Below, one piece after another: positions 21,663 to 36,896 of a stretch of DNA of 41,124 nucleotides. The notes under the pieces were generated by a model that saw only the letters and a program-made list of their open reading frames with translations, had not been told where the DNA came from and made no database searches. Made by a program: the position numbers and the translations under genes. The stretch's first letter is position 1; each line of letters begins with the position of its first letter. Location: the IMG/VR virus record IMGVR_UViG_3300032893_000131, positions 1 to 41,124 of that record; one strand, written 5' to 3'. Source of the DNA: a virus.

Positions 21663-22565
21663 TTAGGACATAGAATACGACCAAAATCCGGCGTTATAGT
21701 GTTGCACCTCCAAGGTCGCTTCGACGGTAACCTGACCATCGGTCGAGTCACCAACTTTAGCCAACTGTTGCACAATCGGTTTACGAAGATACGCAAGCTT
21801 GAAGAAATCCTCGTTGATACCGACCACATCATATGCAACGTCGTTAGTCTGACCGCTGATATAACGATGTGGGAACAATTTGACCATTGAAGCAGCGTCA
21901 GCTTGATAAACGTCAATGGCGTTAATCAAACGACGATCGTCCTGTGTGAAGTATTTTGTAGCACCAGCCGTAAAAGCACTAATTTTACGTTTGATGTACA
22001 TAGAACCATACACAGCATTGACCTGAATCCCTGTGTTATCCCAAACTAACTGGAACAAATCATTTAAGATTTTTTCAGTCAATGAAACAGTTGACATACC
22101 AGTTTGAAGAGATAACGAGTTTTTAAGACCTCGCAACTGACGAGCAGTTGTCGTACCATCACCGCAAGCAATAGAACCACGCATTAGAGCAAACTCCATG
22201 TCATTCTTGATGAGTTTTAATGCTTTTGTGGCTTCATATTGGAAGCGATCATTGAACGCAGCTTGATTGACAGCCCTATCAGTATCAGAAACCCTGAAAC
22301 CTTGTTTAAAGATTTGGCAGACGTTCTGAACACGGGCAGGATTGGTTAAAGTGTTAAAAGTAGCCGCAGAACCTTCAATTTGGGCGTTAGCTTTAACAGC
22401 GTTTAACGTATCAATCAAGGTTTGGTGATAAATATTAGTAGCTTGGCTTGTTCCCAAACCAGATACTAATTGAGTCTCTGTCGGTGAAATGTTCTGAAGG
22501 ATAGCCAAAAGGTCTTCCCTCATTGCATTATCATCATATACGACAGCCGTTGTTAAGGTTGTCAT
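21663..22565 (-). CDS. Major capsid protein, SU10/DUF5309-like, 300 aa
   Basis: HK97-fold capsid protein resembling the SU10 major capsid (DUF5309) family: LTNPARVQNVCQIFKQGFRV, then a helix LIKNDMEFALMRGSIACGDG followed by TARQLRGLKN, a beta-rich centre and AYLRKPIVQQLAKVGDSTDG near the end. The length is typical. Start with AGGAG, directly after the scaffold stop TAG. A strong terminator follows, as is usual for an abundant capsid gene. Confidence 0.88.
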   Translation of the reverse strand: MTTLTTAVVYDDNAMREDLLAILQNISPTETQLVSGLGTSQATNIYHQTLIDTLNAVKANAQIEGSAATFNTLTNPARVQNVCQIFKQGFRVSDTDRAVNQAAFNDRFQYEATKALKLIKNDMEFALMRGSIACGDGTTTARQLRGLKNSLSLQTGMSTVSLTEKILNDLFQLVWDNTGIQVNAVYGSMYIKRKISAFTAGATKYFTQDDRRLINAIDVYQADAASMVKLFPHRYISGQTNDVAYDVVGINEDFFKLAYLRKPIVQQLAKVGDSTDGQVTVEATLEVQHYNAGFWSYSMS

Positions 22566-25811: not shown

Positions 25812-27990
25812 TACCTGCTCCTACTGGTTGCTGTTGTGACTGAACTGCCTGTAATAATGCCAAATTCTTCTCATGTTCATGCTGTAAGGCCTGTTGCTGT
25901 AGTGCCAGATTAGCCCTATGACGTTCTTGAATAACCGCATGTTCATGTGCGATACCTTCAGTGTTACTATCTTCCTGCTGTTGAAGCATCATACCGTGCA
26001 TATCCGGCTGAATACCGAATTTCTGCTTTACTTGAGCCTGTTCTAATGGTGTTAAGTCCAACATATTCATTTTCACAGGCGGAGGTGGAGGCGGTTGTTG
26101 TTTAGGTTGGGGGAATGTGACCAATTCCTGCCAATTTGGTATATTAAGCTCCTGATATACACATTTTAAAGCATTAGCTACGTTCATAGGAGTGATTACA
26201 CCCATCTGTGCTAAAAGAGGGTTTTCCATTTGTTGAAGAATAGCTTGTGATTTCTGCAATCTGACCTGTGGATTGGTATTTTGGTCGTTTCCTCTAACAG
26301 TAATCTTATATTTTCCTTTAACTTCCTCCCTGGTAAGCCTAATTTTCTCCCAACCATCCTTACCAAAATAAGAAAATTCTTCTTCATCATTCCCATATTG
26401 ACACCATAAGTCCCAAATCCAGTTAAATAAGTCCTCAATTTGTCCTTTATATAAATCCGCATCAAGAGAAAATGTCATTTGAGACTGTTGCACCTGCTGA
26501 TCTACTTCTCCCAATGTCCTCGGTTGGCGTTTATTTATCATTGATTGTAGAGTAAAATCAACTTGACCAGTTAATTCCTCTACTTTACTCTCTAATATCA
26601 TCTGTTCGTCTTTATAAGAGAACTCAGCCTGGGCATTTGTATTATTCATTGGCTGCATAACGTCTTCTAATGGTGTCATTCCATTAACTGGTATACCTTG
26701 ACCAAAAATAAATTGCACAGTTTTATTATTTATCAGGCCCGCACGATATAAAAACATTGGAGAGTTTCGGATTGTCTGAGAATCAATTTTTTGCATATGC
26801 TGAATATCAATTTCTTTCACAATATCCTCAATCATCTCAGGAATTCCACGATGAGAGAACCATCTATCGTCACAAAGTTCATAAAATAGCTTAATAAAAG
26901 GCCATTTTTGGTTAAAAAATGGTAATGTTGACTTCCTTAAAATCTTCAAAAAATCAGGTGCTAAAGTAACCACACACTTCTCTTTCGCACCATCATTGTT
27001 AATATCGTACCAGCAATAAGCTTCCCAAATCATCACTAACTCATCTGGAGTCTGTAAACGCATAATTCCTTCACGAAAATCCTTAACAATTTGGATATTT
27101 CGCTGATTCAGATTCACTTGCTTCATAGAATTTATCTCAGCCACACCTTTAATATCCCATCCCTTTAATTCAGCATTCTTTTTAACGGTATCTAAAGGCA
27201 TAAAGAACTCATGTATAATCCACTGGCAACCTTGAGGATCATATCCAGAGTCCGTACCTACATAAATACGCTCATCCATACAGGTATCTGCGTCTGGATG
27301 GTTCTTAGTAACTTCCTGCAAATCAACACTTATAGAAGTTTCTCCTGAGTGTATCTTCTCTGCTGCATCACGTAGGGTAGACATATTCACATTCTTTACA
27401 TTATCACTCATATCTGCTTGGAAATATGACACCAACATCTGCGCCAAGTCTTCCGTAGATGTATTGCTTGAATGAATCTTTTCAACGTCACTAATAGACA
27501 GATCGTCCAACGAAGCGGTCTCAGCACGAGTCACCTCCTCATAAGCCCAATATGGTTTCATCAGACACCAACCCTTTTCTAAGGATTGGTCTATAGTAAT
27601 AATAATTTTTTCTTTCAAATTTGTAATATCACAAATCAAATGATCGAGGAACTTTTCAATCTTCATAGCATTATCAAAAGTTCCTGAAGGGGTAGGAATT
27701 ACTTGTACGACGGGACGAATTCCGAAGATAATATTGACAAGAGATGCCTTTAACTTGCGGATTTTTGTCTCGATTGTCGGCATACGGATATTGGCGCAAC
27801 CGACAAATGGAAAGTTCTTTGTTTTCTTGATGCGATAACGCATCTTAGTCCATTTAAGTTGATTAATTTCCCAAGTAGCAGTAAGCCCCCGTGAGGAGTC
27901 CCTCCATTTTCTTATCGTATCAAGAAGAGTTCTATTAGGGTCTACCTGTTGTTCGGGGGCTTCTATTTTAGTTTTTTTAGGTCTTGCCAT
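25801..27990 (-). CDS. Portal protein, 729 aa
   Basis: Large portal of the P22-like size class (P22 gp1 is about 725 aa). N-terminal helical region with RNTIRKWRD-like and NFPFVGCANIRMPTIETKIR, a central stem/wing region (WPFIKLFYELCDDRWFSHRG, IPEMIEDIVKEIDIQHMQKI), and a C-terminal Gln/Pro-rich barrel-like extension (PKQQPPPPPPVKMN.., LALQQQALQHEHEKNLALL). The dodecameric ring at the capsid vertex works with TerL. The ATG overlaps the terminase stop (TAATG) and has GGTGG upstream. Confidence 0.85.
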   Translation of the reverse strand: MARPKKTKIEAPEQQVDPNRTLLDTIRKWRDSSRGLTATWEINQLKWTKMRYRIKKTKNFPFVGCANIRMPTIETKIRKLKASLVNIIFGIRPVVQVIPTPSGTFDNAMKIEKFLDHLICDITNLKEKIIITIDQSLEKGWCLMKPYWAYEEVTRAETASLDDLSISDVEKIHSSNTSTEDLAQMLVSYFQADMSDNVKNVNMSTLRDAAEKIHSGETSISVDLQEVTKNHPDADTCMDERIYVGTDSGYDPQGCQWIIHEFFMPLDTVKKNAELKGWDIKGVAEINSMKQVNLNQRNIQIVKDFREGIMRLQTPDELVMIWEAYCWYDINNDGAKEKCVVTLAPDFLKILRKSTLPFFNQKWPFIKLFYELCDDRWFSHRGIPEMIEDIVKEIDIQHMQKIDSQTIRNSPMFLYRAGLINNKTVQFIFGQGIPVNGMTPLEDVMQPMNNTNAQAEFSYKDEQMILESKVEELTGQVDFTLQSMINKRQPRTLGEVDQQVQQSQMTFSLDADLYKGQIEDLFNWIWDLWCQYGNDEEEFSYFGKDGWEKIRLTREEVKGKYKITVRGNDQNTNPQVRLQKSQAILQQMENPLLAQMGVITPMNVANALKCVYQELNIPNWQELVTFPQPKQQPPPPPPVKMNMLDLTPLEQAQVKQKFGIQPDMHGMMLQQQEDSNTEGIAHEHAVIQERHRANLALQQQALQHEHEKNLALLQAVQSQQQPVGAGNEQ

Positions 27991-29489
27991 TATCCACCTA
28001 TCGTAATATCAACCGGAGCCTCATATTCCCTACCTGATGATGATCCATACCCGTAATCATTAGATATAGCCATTTGCATCTCAACATTATTACCATTCGA
28101 ATCCGTAGTAGCTGTACCATAGAATGGCATAATCAAATTCTCGGCGTATGTCATGCAGTCTACCAAATCATCATGCCTCGATACGCCAATGCTCATAAGT
28201 TCGTCACGGGCTTCCAACATGTCAGCACCGATATAGTATTTCCCCTGCTCAAACAAAGGCTGTAAAGCCGCAATCACACGAGCCGTCTTATTCCTAATGC
28301 TTATGCCTGTAGATGATTGAACAAACGCATTTTTCAACTCCATGACAGGCGGGTATAATTTCCGTTCAGTACACTTACGCAAGAATGAATCAAAAAATCC
28401 TTTCTCAACTCCTGAATTCGGAATTCCCAATGCTGTTACTTCTCCTCGATGGGATAACCACATATTAATCACAGCATCTTGAAAATCACCAATCTTAGAA
28501 TGAGTCCTTATGTAATGTGCTAAGAACCTATTTCCGAACTGATCGCATAATATCAAACACGCCGTCTTAAAATCCGCTGTATCGTCCTCGCTATACGCAG
28601 GGTCTACGGCAATCACCGCATTATAATTCTTAGGCAACTGAGTCCATGTTCGTATCTGAGTTTCTTTGATTGGGGCCGTCTCATCACTAATAGGTGAGTT
28701 CATAAATTCACTACTAAACGCAAAACTCCCAATCTCCCGTTTACGAGCCTGCAATCTATCGTGACTCCACAATAAAGGCCACAACTCATGTCCTGCTTCC
28801 TGAACACCATCCTGATACGCCATATACTTCTTCTTTGTCCATCCATTATCCATCGCCAGTAAATCCGCTAATACTGATAGCGGATGTATGATTGTGCCAA
28901 CAATAATAAACTGTCCTTCAGGGACGAGAGTGTTCAGGCAAGCTTTAAACAACCATTCCTTCAGTTGTTTCCGCTGTTCTTCGCTCCTCACACTATCATC
29001 CGTCTCTAAGTCATCGCAGATAATGACATCAGGGCGAAAACCACGAATTTGGCCGCCAGCACCACGAGCCCTAATATTAACCCCATTACGAAGAATGATA
29101 TGATTCTCTGACCATTTATCACTGACTTGTTCTCCAAAGTATTCCCTCACTCTCGGATTATTACACAGTTCAAATTTTATTTTACGAAGCCAGTCTACAG
29201 CCAATGTTTCGGAAGCGGATATAATTACAATATCCGTCGCACCTTTCCATAGGGCCAGCCATATAGGATAGATGACACTGACCATTGTAGACTTAGCGAA
29301 ACCACGAGGGGATGCTAATACGATCCTTTTGCCATTAGGAAGCATCTTATAAACTTCTAAATGGAAATCCGGCGAGTCACTTAAGAGCAGAGGCTTAAGG
29401 AAGTACTCCGCAAATTTATATATGCTCTCTTGCGTATCAGCGACAGTTTGCGCTATTATCTCACGTTCTTCGTCGGTATATTGTTTCAT
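27990..29489 (-). CDS. terL: Terminase large subunit, 499 aa
   Basis: Packaging motor. ATPase: Walker A variant LASPRGFAKST (about 58-68), Walker B VIICDDLE (155-162), coupling motif FIIVGTIIHP (about 194-203). Nuclease: AVIAVDPAYSEDDTADF with D296, GIPNSGVEKGFF, and RHDDLVDCMTYAEN (about 438-451) with the C-terminal metal-binding Asp. Typical full length. The ATG overlaps the stop of the 60-aa ORF (ATGA). Confidence 0.95.
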   Translation of the reverse strand: MKQYTDEEREIIAQTVADTQESIYKFAEYFLKPLLLSDSPDFHLEVYKMLPNGKRIVLASPRGFAKSTMVSVIYPIWLALWKGATDIVIISASETLAVDWLRKIKFELCNNPRVREYFGEQVSDKWSENHIILRNGVNIRARGAGGQIRGFRPDVIICDDLETDDSVRSEEQRKQLKEWLFKACLNTLVPEGQFIIVGTIIHPLSVLADLLAMDNGWTKKKYMAYQDGVQEAGHELWPLLWSHDRLQARKREIGSFAFSSEFMNSPISDETAPIKETQIRTWTQLPKNYNAVIAVDPAYSEDDTADFKTACLILCDQFGNRFLAHYIRTHSKIGDFQDAVINMWLSHRGEVTALGIPNSGVEKGFFDSFLRKCTERKLYPPVMELKNAFVQSSTGISIRNKTARVIAALQPLFEQGKYYIGADMLEARDELMSIGVSRHDDLVDCMTYAENLIMPFYGTATTDSNGNNVEMQMAISNDYGYGSSSGREYEAPVDITIGG

Positions 29490-31736: not shown

Positions 31737-31865
31737 GTTACGATCTGCCCAGGAAATCAAAAAGCCATCCTAAAACCATCCGTATAATTATTCAACTACA
31801 CAATAATTAGTATTATGTTAAGTACGCACACATAGATTATGAGTGGCTATGTCATGCTCTGAAAC

Positions 31866-31905
31866 GTGGTGATTCTACACCACTTTATAGGATTTTTTAG
31901 TGGTG
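31866..31905 (+). promoter_or_regulatory. Mutually exclusive hairpins, possible terminator/attenuator
   Basis: GTGGTG (31866-31871), CACCAC (31878-31883) and GTGGTG (31900-31905) allow two alternative 6-bp stems. A T-rich stretch (TTTATAGG then ATTTTTT) follows the first. It may end the transcript of the membrane-protein gene or act as a switch. Confidence 0.35.
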
Positions 31906-31944
31906 AAGTGGAGCAATATACTATGTATATATAATATGCCAAGC

Positions 31945-32163
31945 CGTCCTTAATATGTCCGTCATTTATTATCTGTCTTCCCTTATATAATAAGCTGTCC
32001 TTTATGTCCATCATGTCCTTCTTTTTTTATAATTATATATAAACATATAAATAGAGAGAGATATATAAGAAAAAAAAGATATAGCTACAATGTCAATGTC
32101 CGCCATTTTTGACGGACACAACGGACGGATTTAGAATTATGTCCTTAATGTCCGTAATGTCCG
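31945..32163. repeat. Iteron-like TGTCC repeats (origin or operator)
   Basis: TGTCC-type 9-bp units occur in phase: starts at 31996, 32005, 32014 and again at 32140, 32149, 32158 (ATGTCCTTA, ATGTCCGTA, ATGTCCGTT). Further copies begin at 31945, 31956 and 32097. CGGAC units in the opposite orientation lie at 32113 and 32122, also 9 bp apart, and TGTCCG/CGGACA at 32097-32118 form an inverted pair. Nine-bp spacing places sites almost one helix turn apart, as for replication-initiator or repressor arrays. Confidence 0.7.
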
Positions 32164-32231
32164 TTGTATTTTTATAGAGATGATGAATATTATTATTGAT
32201 ATAATAATTTAAAATAATTAAATAAATTTAC
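32164..32231. other. AT-rich tract beside the iterons
   Basis: About 68 nt almost without G or C, next to the iterons and before the early promoter; a plausible DNA-unwinding element. An 11-bp direct repeat ATGATGAATAT occurs at 32180-32190 and again at 32241-32251 inside the promoter spacer. Confidence 0.5.
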
Positions 32232-32259
32232 TTGACATTAATGATGAATATGGTATAAT
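32232..32259 (+). promoter_or_regulatory. Early promoter, sigma70-like
   Basis: Perfect TTGACA (32232-32237), 16-nt spacer, perfect TATAAT (32254-32259). It reads into the early operon; the leader contains a GGCC-AACA-GGCC inverted repeat before the first gene. The strength and nearby iterons suggest that it is the main, probably repressible, early promoter. Confidence 0.85.
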
Positions 32260-34041: not shown

Positions 34042-34303
34042 ATGAACACGCAAGGGAAGACATAAATACACAATCAATCTACCAATAGAATTATATGAAC
34101 GAGCAAAGAAGAAAGCGGAAGCGGTTGGAATATACTCAGTGTCGATATATTTTAGGGCGATACTGATTAGGGAAATTAATAATGATCTCACAGCCGATGA
34201 AATAATTATGGGTCGTGATGAAAGTGAATCTGTTCATAATGGTAAACACCGACGAGGGAAATTAAATAATATTTCGAGGAAACAATGGAAATGGCATTGG
34301 TAA
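34042..34303 (+). pseudogene. Ribbon-helix-helix regulator with +1 frameshift
   Basis: ATG at 34042 has AGGAAAG upstream, but the frame ends after seven codons. Skipping one G in the GGG run at 34054-34056 joins MNTQG to RHKYTINLPIELYERAKKKA, a typical Arc/CopG-type ribbon-helix-helix start (beta strand YTINLP, then helix), and the frame then continues to a stop at 34303 (about 87 residues). The C-terminal tail is basic. Sequencing error, decay or programmed frameshift cannot be separated here. If intact, likely a repressor of the early region. Confidence 0.6.
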
Positions 34304-34322: not shown

Positions 34323-34350
34323 TTGACATTGAATTAAGAATAAATATACT
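34323..34350 (+). promoter_or_regulatory. Promoter for the structured RNA
   Basis: TTGACA (34323-34328), 16-nt spacer, TATACT (34345-34350). Predicted start near 34357, just before the long structured segment. It lies inside the operon, so the RNA can be made separately from the upstream genes. Confidence 0.75.
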
Positions 34351-34356
34351 AACAAA

Positions 34357-34640
34357 TAGTTCTTTGAGCGATGAATCTTACAGGGTAATATCGAGTCATA
34401 TACCAGAAACATATATTATAGAAATATGATTCAGTAGTAGAAACCCCCACCAAATAGGATTCATGCTCAAAGCTAATAGGCCTGGTATGGCTAAAGGCAA
34501 GAGATGAATCCAATCATCAAAAACCAAAAAGAAATAAATCCCCTATTCAGCCACTGCCCAAGTTATGGCTTTCTGGCACTCGCCGGAGTCTGCCCATCTC
34601 TTGCCGGATACCCTTTGGCTGATAGGGGATATTTATATTT
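34357..34640 (+). ncRNA. Candidate structured RNA with large pseudoknot
   Basis: No gene, but strong pairing. Stem 1: 34362-34380 with 34455-34472 (18 bp, one bulged G) enclosing hairpins at 34384-34404 and 34410-34428. Stem 2: GGTAT and GGCAAGAGATG (34484-34488, 34496-34506) with CATCTCTTGCC and ATACC (34595-34605, 34608-34612). Stem 3: 34538-34553 with 34616-34630 (15 bp, one bulge). Stems 2 and 3 interleave, forming a pseudoknot whose connecting loop 34507-34537 is A-rich; a further hairpin (GGCACTC/GAGT..GCC) lies at 34575-34594. The GGGGAT of stem 3 could instead pair with ATCCCC at 34653-34658, just after the next start codon. I do not recognise it as a known family. Confidence 0.7.
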
Positions 34641-34649
34641 GGAGGGCTT

Positions 34650-34775
34650 ATGATCCCCCGTTCCGGTAACTACCTTGTAGACCTCTATGAAGACCAAATG
34701 AATGAAGAACAAAAAGAACGCATTTATCAGGCTGAAATGGATAGATATGAGCTAATGAACTGTGAGGAAATATGA
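34650..34775 (+). CDS. Small acidic protein after the structured RNA, 41 aa
   Basis: ATG with GGAGGG nine bases upstream. Product begins MIPRSGNYLVDLYEDQMNEE and continues as an acidic helix. Its start region can be sequestered by pairing with the 3' strand of the pseudoknot. Stop overlaps the next ATG (ATGA). Confidence 0.65.
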   Translation: MIPRSGNYLVDLYEDQMNEEQKERIYQAEMDRYELMNCEEI

Positions 34776-35432: not shown

Positions 35433-36896
35433 ATGATTACCCTTATGCCCGAAGAAGTAGATACAGAAAATAAATTTAAAGAAGATAAATTTCGTCAATT
35501 TGCTTGGCGAATCAAAAAGGGAGAAATAGGTCAATTCACATATTGTCTTGAAAATGACCAGATTTATTATTATGAAGATGGATATTGGAGGAAATTAAGA
35601 GAAAAAGAATTTTTAGCATTAGCGGAAAACGGATTATTAGACCGAAATAACAATAAATCCTTAATTAAATTTGACGTGCAAAGACGTAAGAAGGTTTTAG
35701 AGAATTATAAAATTTTAGATTTTAAGATGCTGGCAGAATTTAATCAATTCCATCTCTTGAATTTTGAGAATTATATGTTTGATCCAATAGGAATAAATGT
35801 TTTAGCCCATAAGCCAGAATATTTAAGTACTATTCGCATTCCATATAAATACGATCAGTTAGCCTCTTGTCCCCTTTGGTTAAAAACAATATATCAAATT
35901 CTTGAGGGAGATCAGCTAAAAATAAATATATTACAAGAGTTTTTTGGTCAATGTCTTACAAGGGATATTAAACAAGAAAAATCTTTATTATTACTTGGTG
36001 AAAGTCGAAGCGGTAAAAGCACAATATTAAACACCCTTCATAATATGGTAGGAATAGAAAACGCTTCTACAGTTCCTCTTAAATATATTCTAAATCCTGT
36101 GTATACATCTATGATGATTCATAAATTAATTAATTTTGATAAAGACGTTTCTAAAAAAGCGCAAGATTTTGAGGAAGATTTTAAGAAGATAGTAACGGGC
36201 GAGGAAGTAACAGCAAATGATAAATATGATGATCCTTTTACATTTAAGCCTTTTTGTAAAATGGTATTATCAGCTAATATTTTCCCTAAGATCACCGATC
36301 ACTCCTCCGCTTTCTACAACCGTCTGATCCTCCTACCCTGTAATAGAGTGTTCTCTCCTTCTGAACAAAATAGAAATCTTAGGGAAGAGCTTATCGAAGA
36401 ATTGCCAGGGATATTAAATTGGGCTGTAGAAGGTTTGAAAAGATTGACGAATCGAGGATATTTTGAAGAAGTTAATTTTATGAAAGATGCAATTAATGAA
36501 TTGGAAAGAGAGAATAATCCAGTATATGGATTCTTTGAAGATCATATTGAAATAGATTTAAATGGAAATACTTACATAGAAAAATCAGATTTATACGAGA
36601 AATATATTCAATGGTCTAAAAAGAATGGGCTATTTACTCTTAGTGATATTGTATTTGGGAAATGTATTTTAAAGAAATATTCAAAAGAAACTCAGAAAGA
36701 TTCAAGACTATCAAGTGGGAATAGACCTCGGATTTGGAAAAATATACGCTATGTCGAATTTAAATCAAATGTAATTAAAGAAGAAATCTCATGGGAAGAA
36801 TCCCCTGCTGAAACGTCAGTAAACGCCGTACACATTGGGCAATCGGCTGAGGGCGCTGTGCAGAGTAAGCAGGAAGATATTAATTGGGAAACATGA
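35433..36896 (+). CDS. SF3 (D5/P4-type) DNA helicase, 487 aa
   Basis: Helicase part of the phage/plasmid primase family. A D5_N-like domain before the ATPase (PLWLKTIYQILEGDQLKINI), Walker A LLGESRSGKST (about 187-197), Walker B-like INFDKDVS (233-240), sensor 1 MVLSAN (277-282) followed by SSAFYNRLILLPCNR with arginine finger. No archaeo-eukaryotic primase domain is visible N-terminally, so priming must come from elsewhere. Adjacent start immediately after the upstream stop. Main replicative helicase candidate of this phage. Confidence 0.88.
   Translation: MITLMPEEVDTENKFKEDKFRQFAWRIKKGEIGQFTYCLENDQIYYYEDGYWRKLREKEFLALAENGLLDRNNNKSLIKFDVQRRKKVLENYKILDFKMLAEFNQFHLLNFENYMFDPIGINVLAHKPEYLSTIRIPYKYDQLASCPLWLKTIYQILEGDQLKINILQEFFGQCLTRDIKQEKSLLLLGESRSGKSTILNTLHNMVGIENASTVPLKYILNPVYTSMMIHKLINFDKDVSKKAQDFEEDFKKIVTGEEVTANDKYDDPFTFKPFCKMVLSANIFPKITDHSSAFYNRLILLPCNRVFSPSEQNRNLREELIEELPGILNWAVEGLKRLTNRGYFEEVNFMKDAINELERENNPVYGFFEDHIEIDLNGNTYIEKSDLYEKYIQWSKKNGLFTLSDIVFGKCILKKYSKETQKDSRLSSGNRPRIWKNIRYVEFKSNVIKEEISWEESPAETSVNAVHIGQSAEGAVQSKQEDINWET

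Follow-up and report, generated by a model that had tools for sequence, protein, structure and literature searches.

A conserved pseudoknotted RNA element heading a replication-helicase operon in four uncultured phages

Analysis of a viral DNA of 41,124 nt (IMG/VR record IMGVR_UViG_3300032893_000131), here called the window in its full length and numbered along one strand, points to a conserved, unnamed pseudoknotted RNA which is well supported by compensatory changes and of which four members are known. The element consists of two crossing stems, P4 (arms A and A′) and P5 (arms B and B′), behind a predicted promoter, and the order of parts common to four uncultured phages is a ribbon-helix-helix-like (RHH-like) gene, the promoter, the pseudoknot, and a helicase gene or helicase operon. 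The features of the window are collected in Table 1.

Table 1. Positions of the element and its neighbours in the window; the promoters of three relatives (L005, L006 and L053) are given in their own coordinates.
Feature	Position	Strand	Basis or remark
Remnant or broken frame of short RHH-like gene	34046-34303	+	position and residue pattern
Sigma70-type promoter TTGACA-N16-TATACT	34323-34350	+	sequence match, 11/12 consensus
Promoter of same spacing and position behind RHH-like gene, relatives	L005 1605-1632; L006 9814-9841; L053 5524-5551		
P1 domain, 8+10 bp stem, one bulged G	34362-34369, 34371-34380/34455-34472 (domain 34362-34472)	+	folding
Hairpin enclosed by P1	34393-34401/34424-34432	+	folding
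Candidate anti-SD CCCACCAAATA, inside P1	34446-34456	+	10/11 complementary to TATTTGGAGGG (34636-34646)
P4 5′ arm (A) GGCAAGAGATG	34496-34506	+	stem search, covariation
49-aa ORF, stop overlaps next start as ATGA	34504-34653	+	probably not a gene
Loop L1, 31 nt, 65% A	34507-34537	+	relatives have T1 hairpin here
P5 5′ arm (B) ATCCCCTAT-T-CAGCC	34538-34552	+	stem search, covariation
P6 hairpin GGCACTC-GCCG-GAGT-CT-GCC, inside 42-nt loop L2	34575-34594	+	sequence, folding
P4 3′ arm (A′) CATCTCTTGCC	34595-34605	+	stem search, covariation
P5 3′ arm (B′) GGCTGATAGGGGAT, then U-rich ATATTTATATTT	34617-34630	+	covariation; terminator-like scan
Shine-Dalgarno GGAGGG of 41-aa ORF	34641-34646	+	sequence
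41-aa ORF (orf41), first gene of operon below element	34650-34775	+	no family match
ATCCCC, possible alternative partner of B′ (34625-34630)	34653-34658	+	sequence complementarity
D5_N + SF3-type replicative helicase, C-terminal part of P4-family primase	35433-36896	+	family matches

A first-pass annotation, made from the letters of the window, had described a TTGACA-N16-TATACT promoter followed by a structured stretch of about 280 nt, and this arrangement is present. Sites of the form TTGACA-N15-17-TATANT are scarce, with two in the 41-kb window against 0.24 expected, and the promoter of the element is one of them. The relatives have the −10 box TATACT (L005 and L053) or TATAGT (L006), and their promoter overlaps the 3′ end of an RHH-like gene of 53-58 aa. 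In all four phages a TTGACA-N16-TATANT site lies directly where a short RHH-like gene ends, with the frame of that gene broken in the window: an in-frame TGA lies at about 34043 and no ATG, GTG or TTG follows until 34139, the relatives being intact at the same place. Scans of the window and the relatives for near-consensus promoters gave none on the minus strand over the element. The window has a local G+C peak at the element. The RHH assignment of the upstream gene was made by eye from the residue pattern alone, and its protein had no match among Pfam, NCBIfam and PDB sequences. A low-confidence structural model shows a coil-helix-helix arrangement, for which the top fold match, an insignificant one, is a ParDE toxin-antitoxin complex. 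It is possible that this tiny gene encodes a DNA-binding protein.

Folding of positions 34355-34660 (306 nt) gave −92.8 kcal/mol (z −3.87), matched by none of 100 shuffles, and a scan covering the right 11 kb singled out the element as the most structured place, with −4.3 on the plus strand versus −1.7 on the minus strand. The P1 domain folded alone has a z of −4.9. The 18-bp bulged stem around two hairpins claimed earlier is found as to the stem (8+10 bp), with one clear hairpin inside instead of two. P4 comprises 11 perfect bp and is extended by GGTAT/ATACC (34484-34488/34608-34612), while P5 comprises 14 bp with one bulged T; the crossing of an 11-bp (+5 bp) stem with a second stem is therefore as first described, apart from the 15 bp ascribed to the latter. 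Pairing of the candidate anti-SD segment with 34636-34646 is as cheap a guess as the start-codon hairpin treated below, and is possibly due to chance.

The relatives were found through the helicase encoded 800 nt downstream and not through the sequence of the element. Searching with this helicase yielded two phages at 69-70% identity (L005, also labelled L003, and L006, also labelled L004), and the consensus of the conserved helicase core yielded a third, L053, the helicase of which is 48% identical to that of the window. A structure scan of the relatives' loci flagged the gap ahead of the helicase gene in L005. The relatives share a plan in which the promoter is followed by arm A soon after the expected start, a terminator-like hairpin T1, B, A′, in most cases a small hairpin, then B′ and finally the start codon of the helicase. 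Arm A of the relatives reads GGCTTAGA, GGGACAG or GGCGAACA. The distance from the end of B′ to the helicase start codon is about 5 nt in L005, 8 nt in L006 and 23 nt in L053; in the window the next start codon is that of orf41, at 19 nt. In all three relatives T1 lies between the 5′ arms of P4 and P5, i.e. in the first loop of the pseudoknot. It is absent from the window, where L1 is a 31-nt A-rich linker, so T1 does not define the proposed RHH-pseudoknot-helicase RNA family. P1, an extra stem domain of 110 nt before A, occurs only in the window among the four phages.

Three lines of comparison argue for the pseudoknot. The strongest crossing stem pair in each of the four sequences is P4 x P5 (A-A′/B-B′), and equally strong crossing stems arose in 7 (window), 14 (L005), 53 (L006) and 2 (L053) of 2000 shuffles; a Fisher combination of the four tests by hand gives about 1e-6, assuming that the four sequences are independent. 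Secondly, every one of the 13 core pairs is formed in each of the four phages (52 of 52 cells), with 8 pairs changed on both sides, which none of 500 shuffles reproduced, and sliding the partners by 1-3 columns lowers the pairing to 29-52%. Because the alignment was built by structure this 13-pair test leans towards structure, which does not apply to the crossing-stem test with 2000 shuffles. Thirdly, a rough pseudoknot energy, taken as the nested ensemble with the P4 arms blocked plus P4 stacking and a penalty of 9.6 kcal/mol, lies below the unconstrained nested ensemble by 1.0 (window), 1.2 (L005), 5.0 (L053) and 1.3 kcal/mol (L006). When 13 promoter-like sites in the retrieved loci were scored for crossing stems, the element sites of the three relatives ranked 1-3. 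A scan of 409 windows along the DNA of Table 1 gave one place in coding DNA (27701-28105) which outscores the element, so the single sequence is suggestive and not proof. That place, with the strongest crossing stems of the window, lies within the portal/terminase coding region and is probably a chance occurrence. Since the arms differ among the four phages and yet stay complementary at all core pairs, the P4 x P5 pseudoknot is very likely real. The large pseudoknot of interleaved stems proposed in the first-pass annotation has thereby passed the test suggested with it, both crossing stems showing compensatory change in the three relatives; P1, to which the same test was to apply, does not, being absent from L005, L006 and L053.

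The same conservation in three relatives makes it very improbable that the element is chance structure or a small protein gene. A 49-aa ORF, which overlaps the next start as ATGA and has a plausible ribosome site, does run through part of it, but its coding score of −0.076 is within the off-frame range and no homolog was found; this ORF is probably not a gene.

As stated earlier, the element belongs to no recognised Rfam family: an Rfam 15 covariance-model search of the whole window gave no match at the gathering score, and permissive E-values added implausible matches only, mostly on the minus strand, in the window and L053, and none in L005 and L006. ARAGORN detected no tRNA or tmRNA in the window. 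A group I intron and a tmRNA were rejected on negative ARAGORN and Rfam results, and an HDV-like ribozyme on the negative Rfam result and on the stretch from the P5 5′ arm to the P4 3′ arm, which is 4 nt in L006 and 0 nt in L053 and leaves no room for P3. The arms diverge and few loop bases are conserved, which speaks against a conserved ligand pocket as in a riboswitch. Direct searches of phages and plasmids with the element DNA gave short chance matches only, and the stem-arm patterns found no match with both arms in viral and genome contig collections, each 16/17-mer match lacking the rest. Ordinary sequence searches miss the element because its arms change sequence and stay complementary. 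No copy was found in the relatives of the lysozyme-like gene (L002 and MW202718) or of the terminase (L007-L010), several of these contigs ending before the locus. MW202718, a Manatee Spring podovirus (L011), has a very strong long-range inverted structure at 21700-21960 (z −8.9 in a 250-nt scan); it lies between convergent genes and was rejected as a copy of the element, being a different thing. By annotation, a gap holding such an element before the P4-family primase gene is absent from PM-CJR, KLEA5, Sasha, LincolnB and an Alicyclobacillus plasmid (<30 nt), and a gap of about 340 nt precedes the primase gene of Henu15, also a P4-family primase phage.

The protein encoded at 35433-36896 corresponds to the D5_N/SF3 helicase part of P4-family primases, the primase domain being absent; it matches these primases from residue 227 on only. 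Its gene directly follows the element in L005, L006 and L053, and in the window it lies 800 nt downstream, separated from the element by the 41-aa ORF, a lysozyme-like gene and orf69. In L053 the homologs of the latter two are located upstream of the RHH-element pair, and not between element and helicase as in the window, so it is the RHH-like gene, and not strictly the helicase, to which the element remains linked. In these layouts the element accompanies the RHH-like gene and heads the helicase operon. It had been suggested that the element could control the 41-aa and lysozyme-like genes, or be a stand-alone phage RNA. Control in cis may hold, with the replication-helicase operon rather than the lysozyme-like gene as the better target because the element abuts the helicase gene directly in three of the four phages. 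The accompanying suggestion of a start-codon switch is weakly supported: GGGGAT (34625-34630) and ATCCCC are indeed complementary, but forcing the hairpin raises the energy by about 11 kcal/mol; it would therefore be relevant only with P5 held open, for example by a ribosome. In one of the three relatives (L053), UAGGG could similarly pair with CCCUA at the start codon. In L005 and L006 the helicase start has no clear Shine-Dalgarno sequence.

Our favoured reading, which we consider evenly poised between right and wrong, is that the element acts as a pseudoknotted leader close to its promoter and controls the replication-helicase operon; it is favoured because the element has a promoter of its own, ends near a start codon in each of the four phages and contains terminator-like parts. 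A strong sigma70-type promoter, located where the short RHH-like gene ends, would start the leader RNA. Arm A would pair with A′, which the B-B′ stem encloses, giving an H-type pseudoknot with its last strand 5-23 nt before the start codon. Folding beside a terminator, T1 in the relatives and the P5 stem with the U-rich run at the 3′ end, would then set the flow of RNA polymerase or ribosomes into the helicase operon, and a protein, a ribosome or a competing pairing would shift the balance. The RHH-like protein may co-regulate. Against a leader stand the distant helicase in the window, the gene order of L053, the lack of T1 in the window and of P1 elsewhere, the helicase starts of L005 and L006 with no clear Shine-Dalgarno sequence, and the small number of members (four).

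Some of the same features would suit a stand-alone phage ncRNA, ended by P5 and the U-rich run (or by T1) and working in trans or together with a protein, for instance the product of the RHH-like gene; the helicase would then merely be the next gene. This explanation is clearly less probable than a leader and still deserves attention: the near-consensus promoter is present in all four phages, P5 is followed by ATATTTATATTT, GTTAATTTTT or ATTTATTTTT in the window, L005 and L053, and it is the RHH-like gene, not the neighbouring genes, that the element travels with. However, its end lies 5-23 nt from a start codon in four of four phages, the U-run after P5 is weak in L006, and no separate helicase promoter was seen in the gap.

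No integrase was found in the four phage records and the phage is probably non-integrating, so replication control is a likelier use than lysogenic immunity. This bears on an attenuator like phage P4 CI/P1 C4 or a plasmid counter-transcript, in which a released A′ hairpin would pair in trans with A on new transcripts and stop transcription before the replication gene. The order of A, the terminator-like T1, A′ inside a stem-loop and a P4-family helicase gene fits such a circuit, and in L053 arm A is also able to pair with the T1 loop (CGAAGGCGA/TCGCCTTTG). We nevertheless regard it as unlikely, given the missing integrase, no Rfam C4 match, the absence of T1 from the window, and the failure to find a second copy of A (seqC) below the element.

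The four phage records gave neither a Prim-Pol nor a Toprim_2 domain, which together with the truncated match of the helicase to P4-family primases would allow the transcript to serve phage DNA replication as a primer or as an origin element, the neighbouring helicase having no primase domain of its own. Such a role is improbable to a high degree: host DnaG could prime, an origin does not require compensatory change at the RNA level, and the window contains a better origin candidate. The latter is an iteron-like ATGTCCGTNATG cluster at 31955-32168, with 7 of the 13 window matches within 214 bp and some 9 bp apart, just before an early promoter at 32232; it may be an origin or an operator. A separate conserved control region is seen at 31803-31968 of the window and 3092-3256 of L004, where 165 bp between divergent operons are 75% identical and the flanking DNA is unlike.

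Beyond the leader, we tentatively propose a broader and rather doubtful picture of a phage cassette resembling a plasmid copy module, in which the dose of a primase-less replicative helicase is set together by a small DNA-binding protein and by a pseudoknotted RNA that has a promoter of its own, and which moves as a unit between phages while the RNA sequence diversifies and the fold is kept. If the element sets helicase dose, it would be an example, open to testing, of replication under plasmid-like control by RNA in a phage that probably does not integrate, and it would gain in interest if shown to govern replication. The element suggests that many such phage RNAs go unseen, and provides a search recipe: a small possible RHH gene, a near-consensus promoter, crossing stems and a helicase.

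Pseudoknots in replication-gene control regions are known from plasmids and T4-like phages. In phages that have a stand-alone SF3 helicase, we know of no syntenic pseudoknot cassette that brings a promoter of its own. IncI-type pseudoknot leaders are acted on by a leader peptide and antisense RNA. According to titles cited in PMC10724649, the repZ (repA) genes of IncI-alpha, IncB and IncL/M plasmids have an RNA pseudoknot in the replication-gene leader; the element is alike in this position and has different arms. With respect to the leader-peptide feature, the 49-aa ORF of the window overlaps the next start and is not coding-like. In phages T4 and RB69 the translational operator of gene 32, also a replication gene, is a pseudoknot situated in the 5′ leader (PMC535899), but that one is about 28 nt and bound by gp32, whereas the element measures 120-150 nt, carries hairpins inside its loops and has its own promoter.

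In phage P4 the CI RNA pairs with seqA and seqC and ends replication-gene transcription early (PMC4825925). Leader complementarity before a P4-family replication gene and the involvement of a terminator are common to both, unlike seqC, an integrase and an Rfam C4 match, which the element phages lack. The copG-RNAII-repB region of pMV158 has an RHH-type gene, then an RNA element and a replication gene (PMC4485353); RNAII is antisense, whereas the promoter of the element is sense. The control region of plasmid R1 (IncFII) consists of copB, PrepA, the CopT leader, tap and repA and, as described in PMC5717011, is without a pseudoknot, unlike the element. A small DNA-binding-protein gene, a promoter behind it, a structured leader and a replication gene are the points of likeness, with the differences that no antisense promoter was seen here, that a phage helicase replaces RepA and that no sequence relation was seen. 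On the features tested, the element would appear to stand outside the R1, IncI/IncL/M and T4 gene 32 systems and to be alike in layout.
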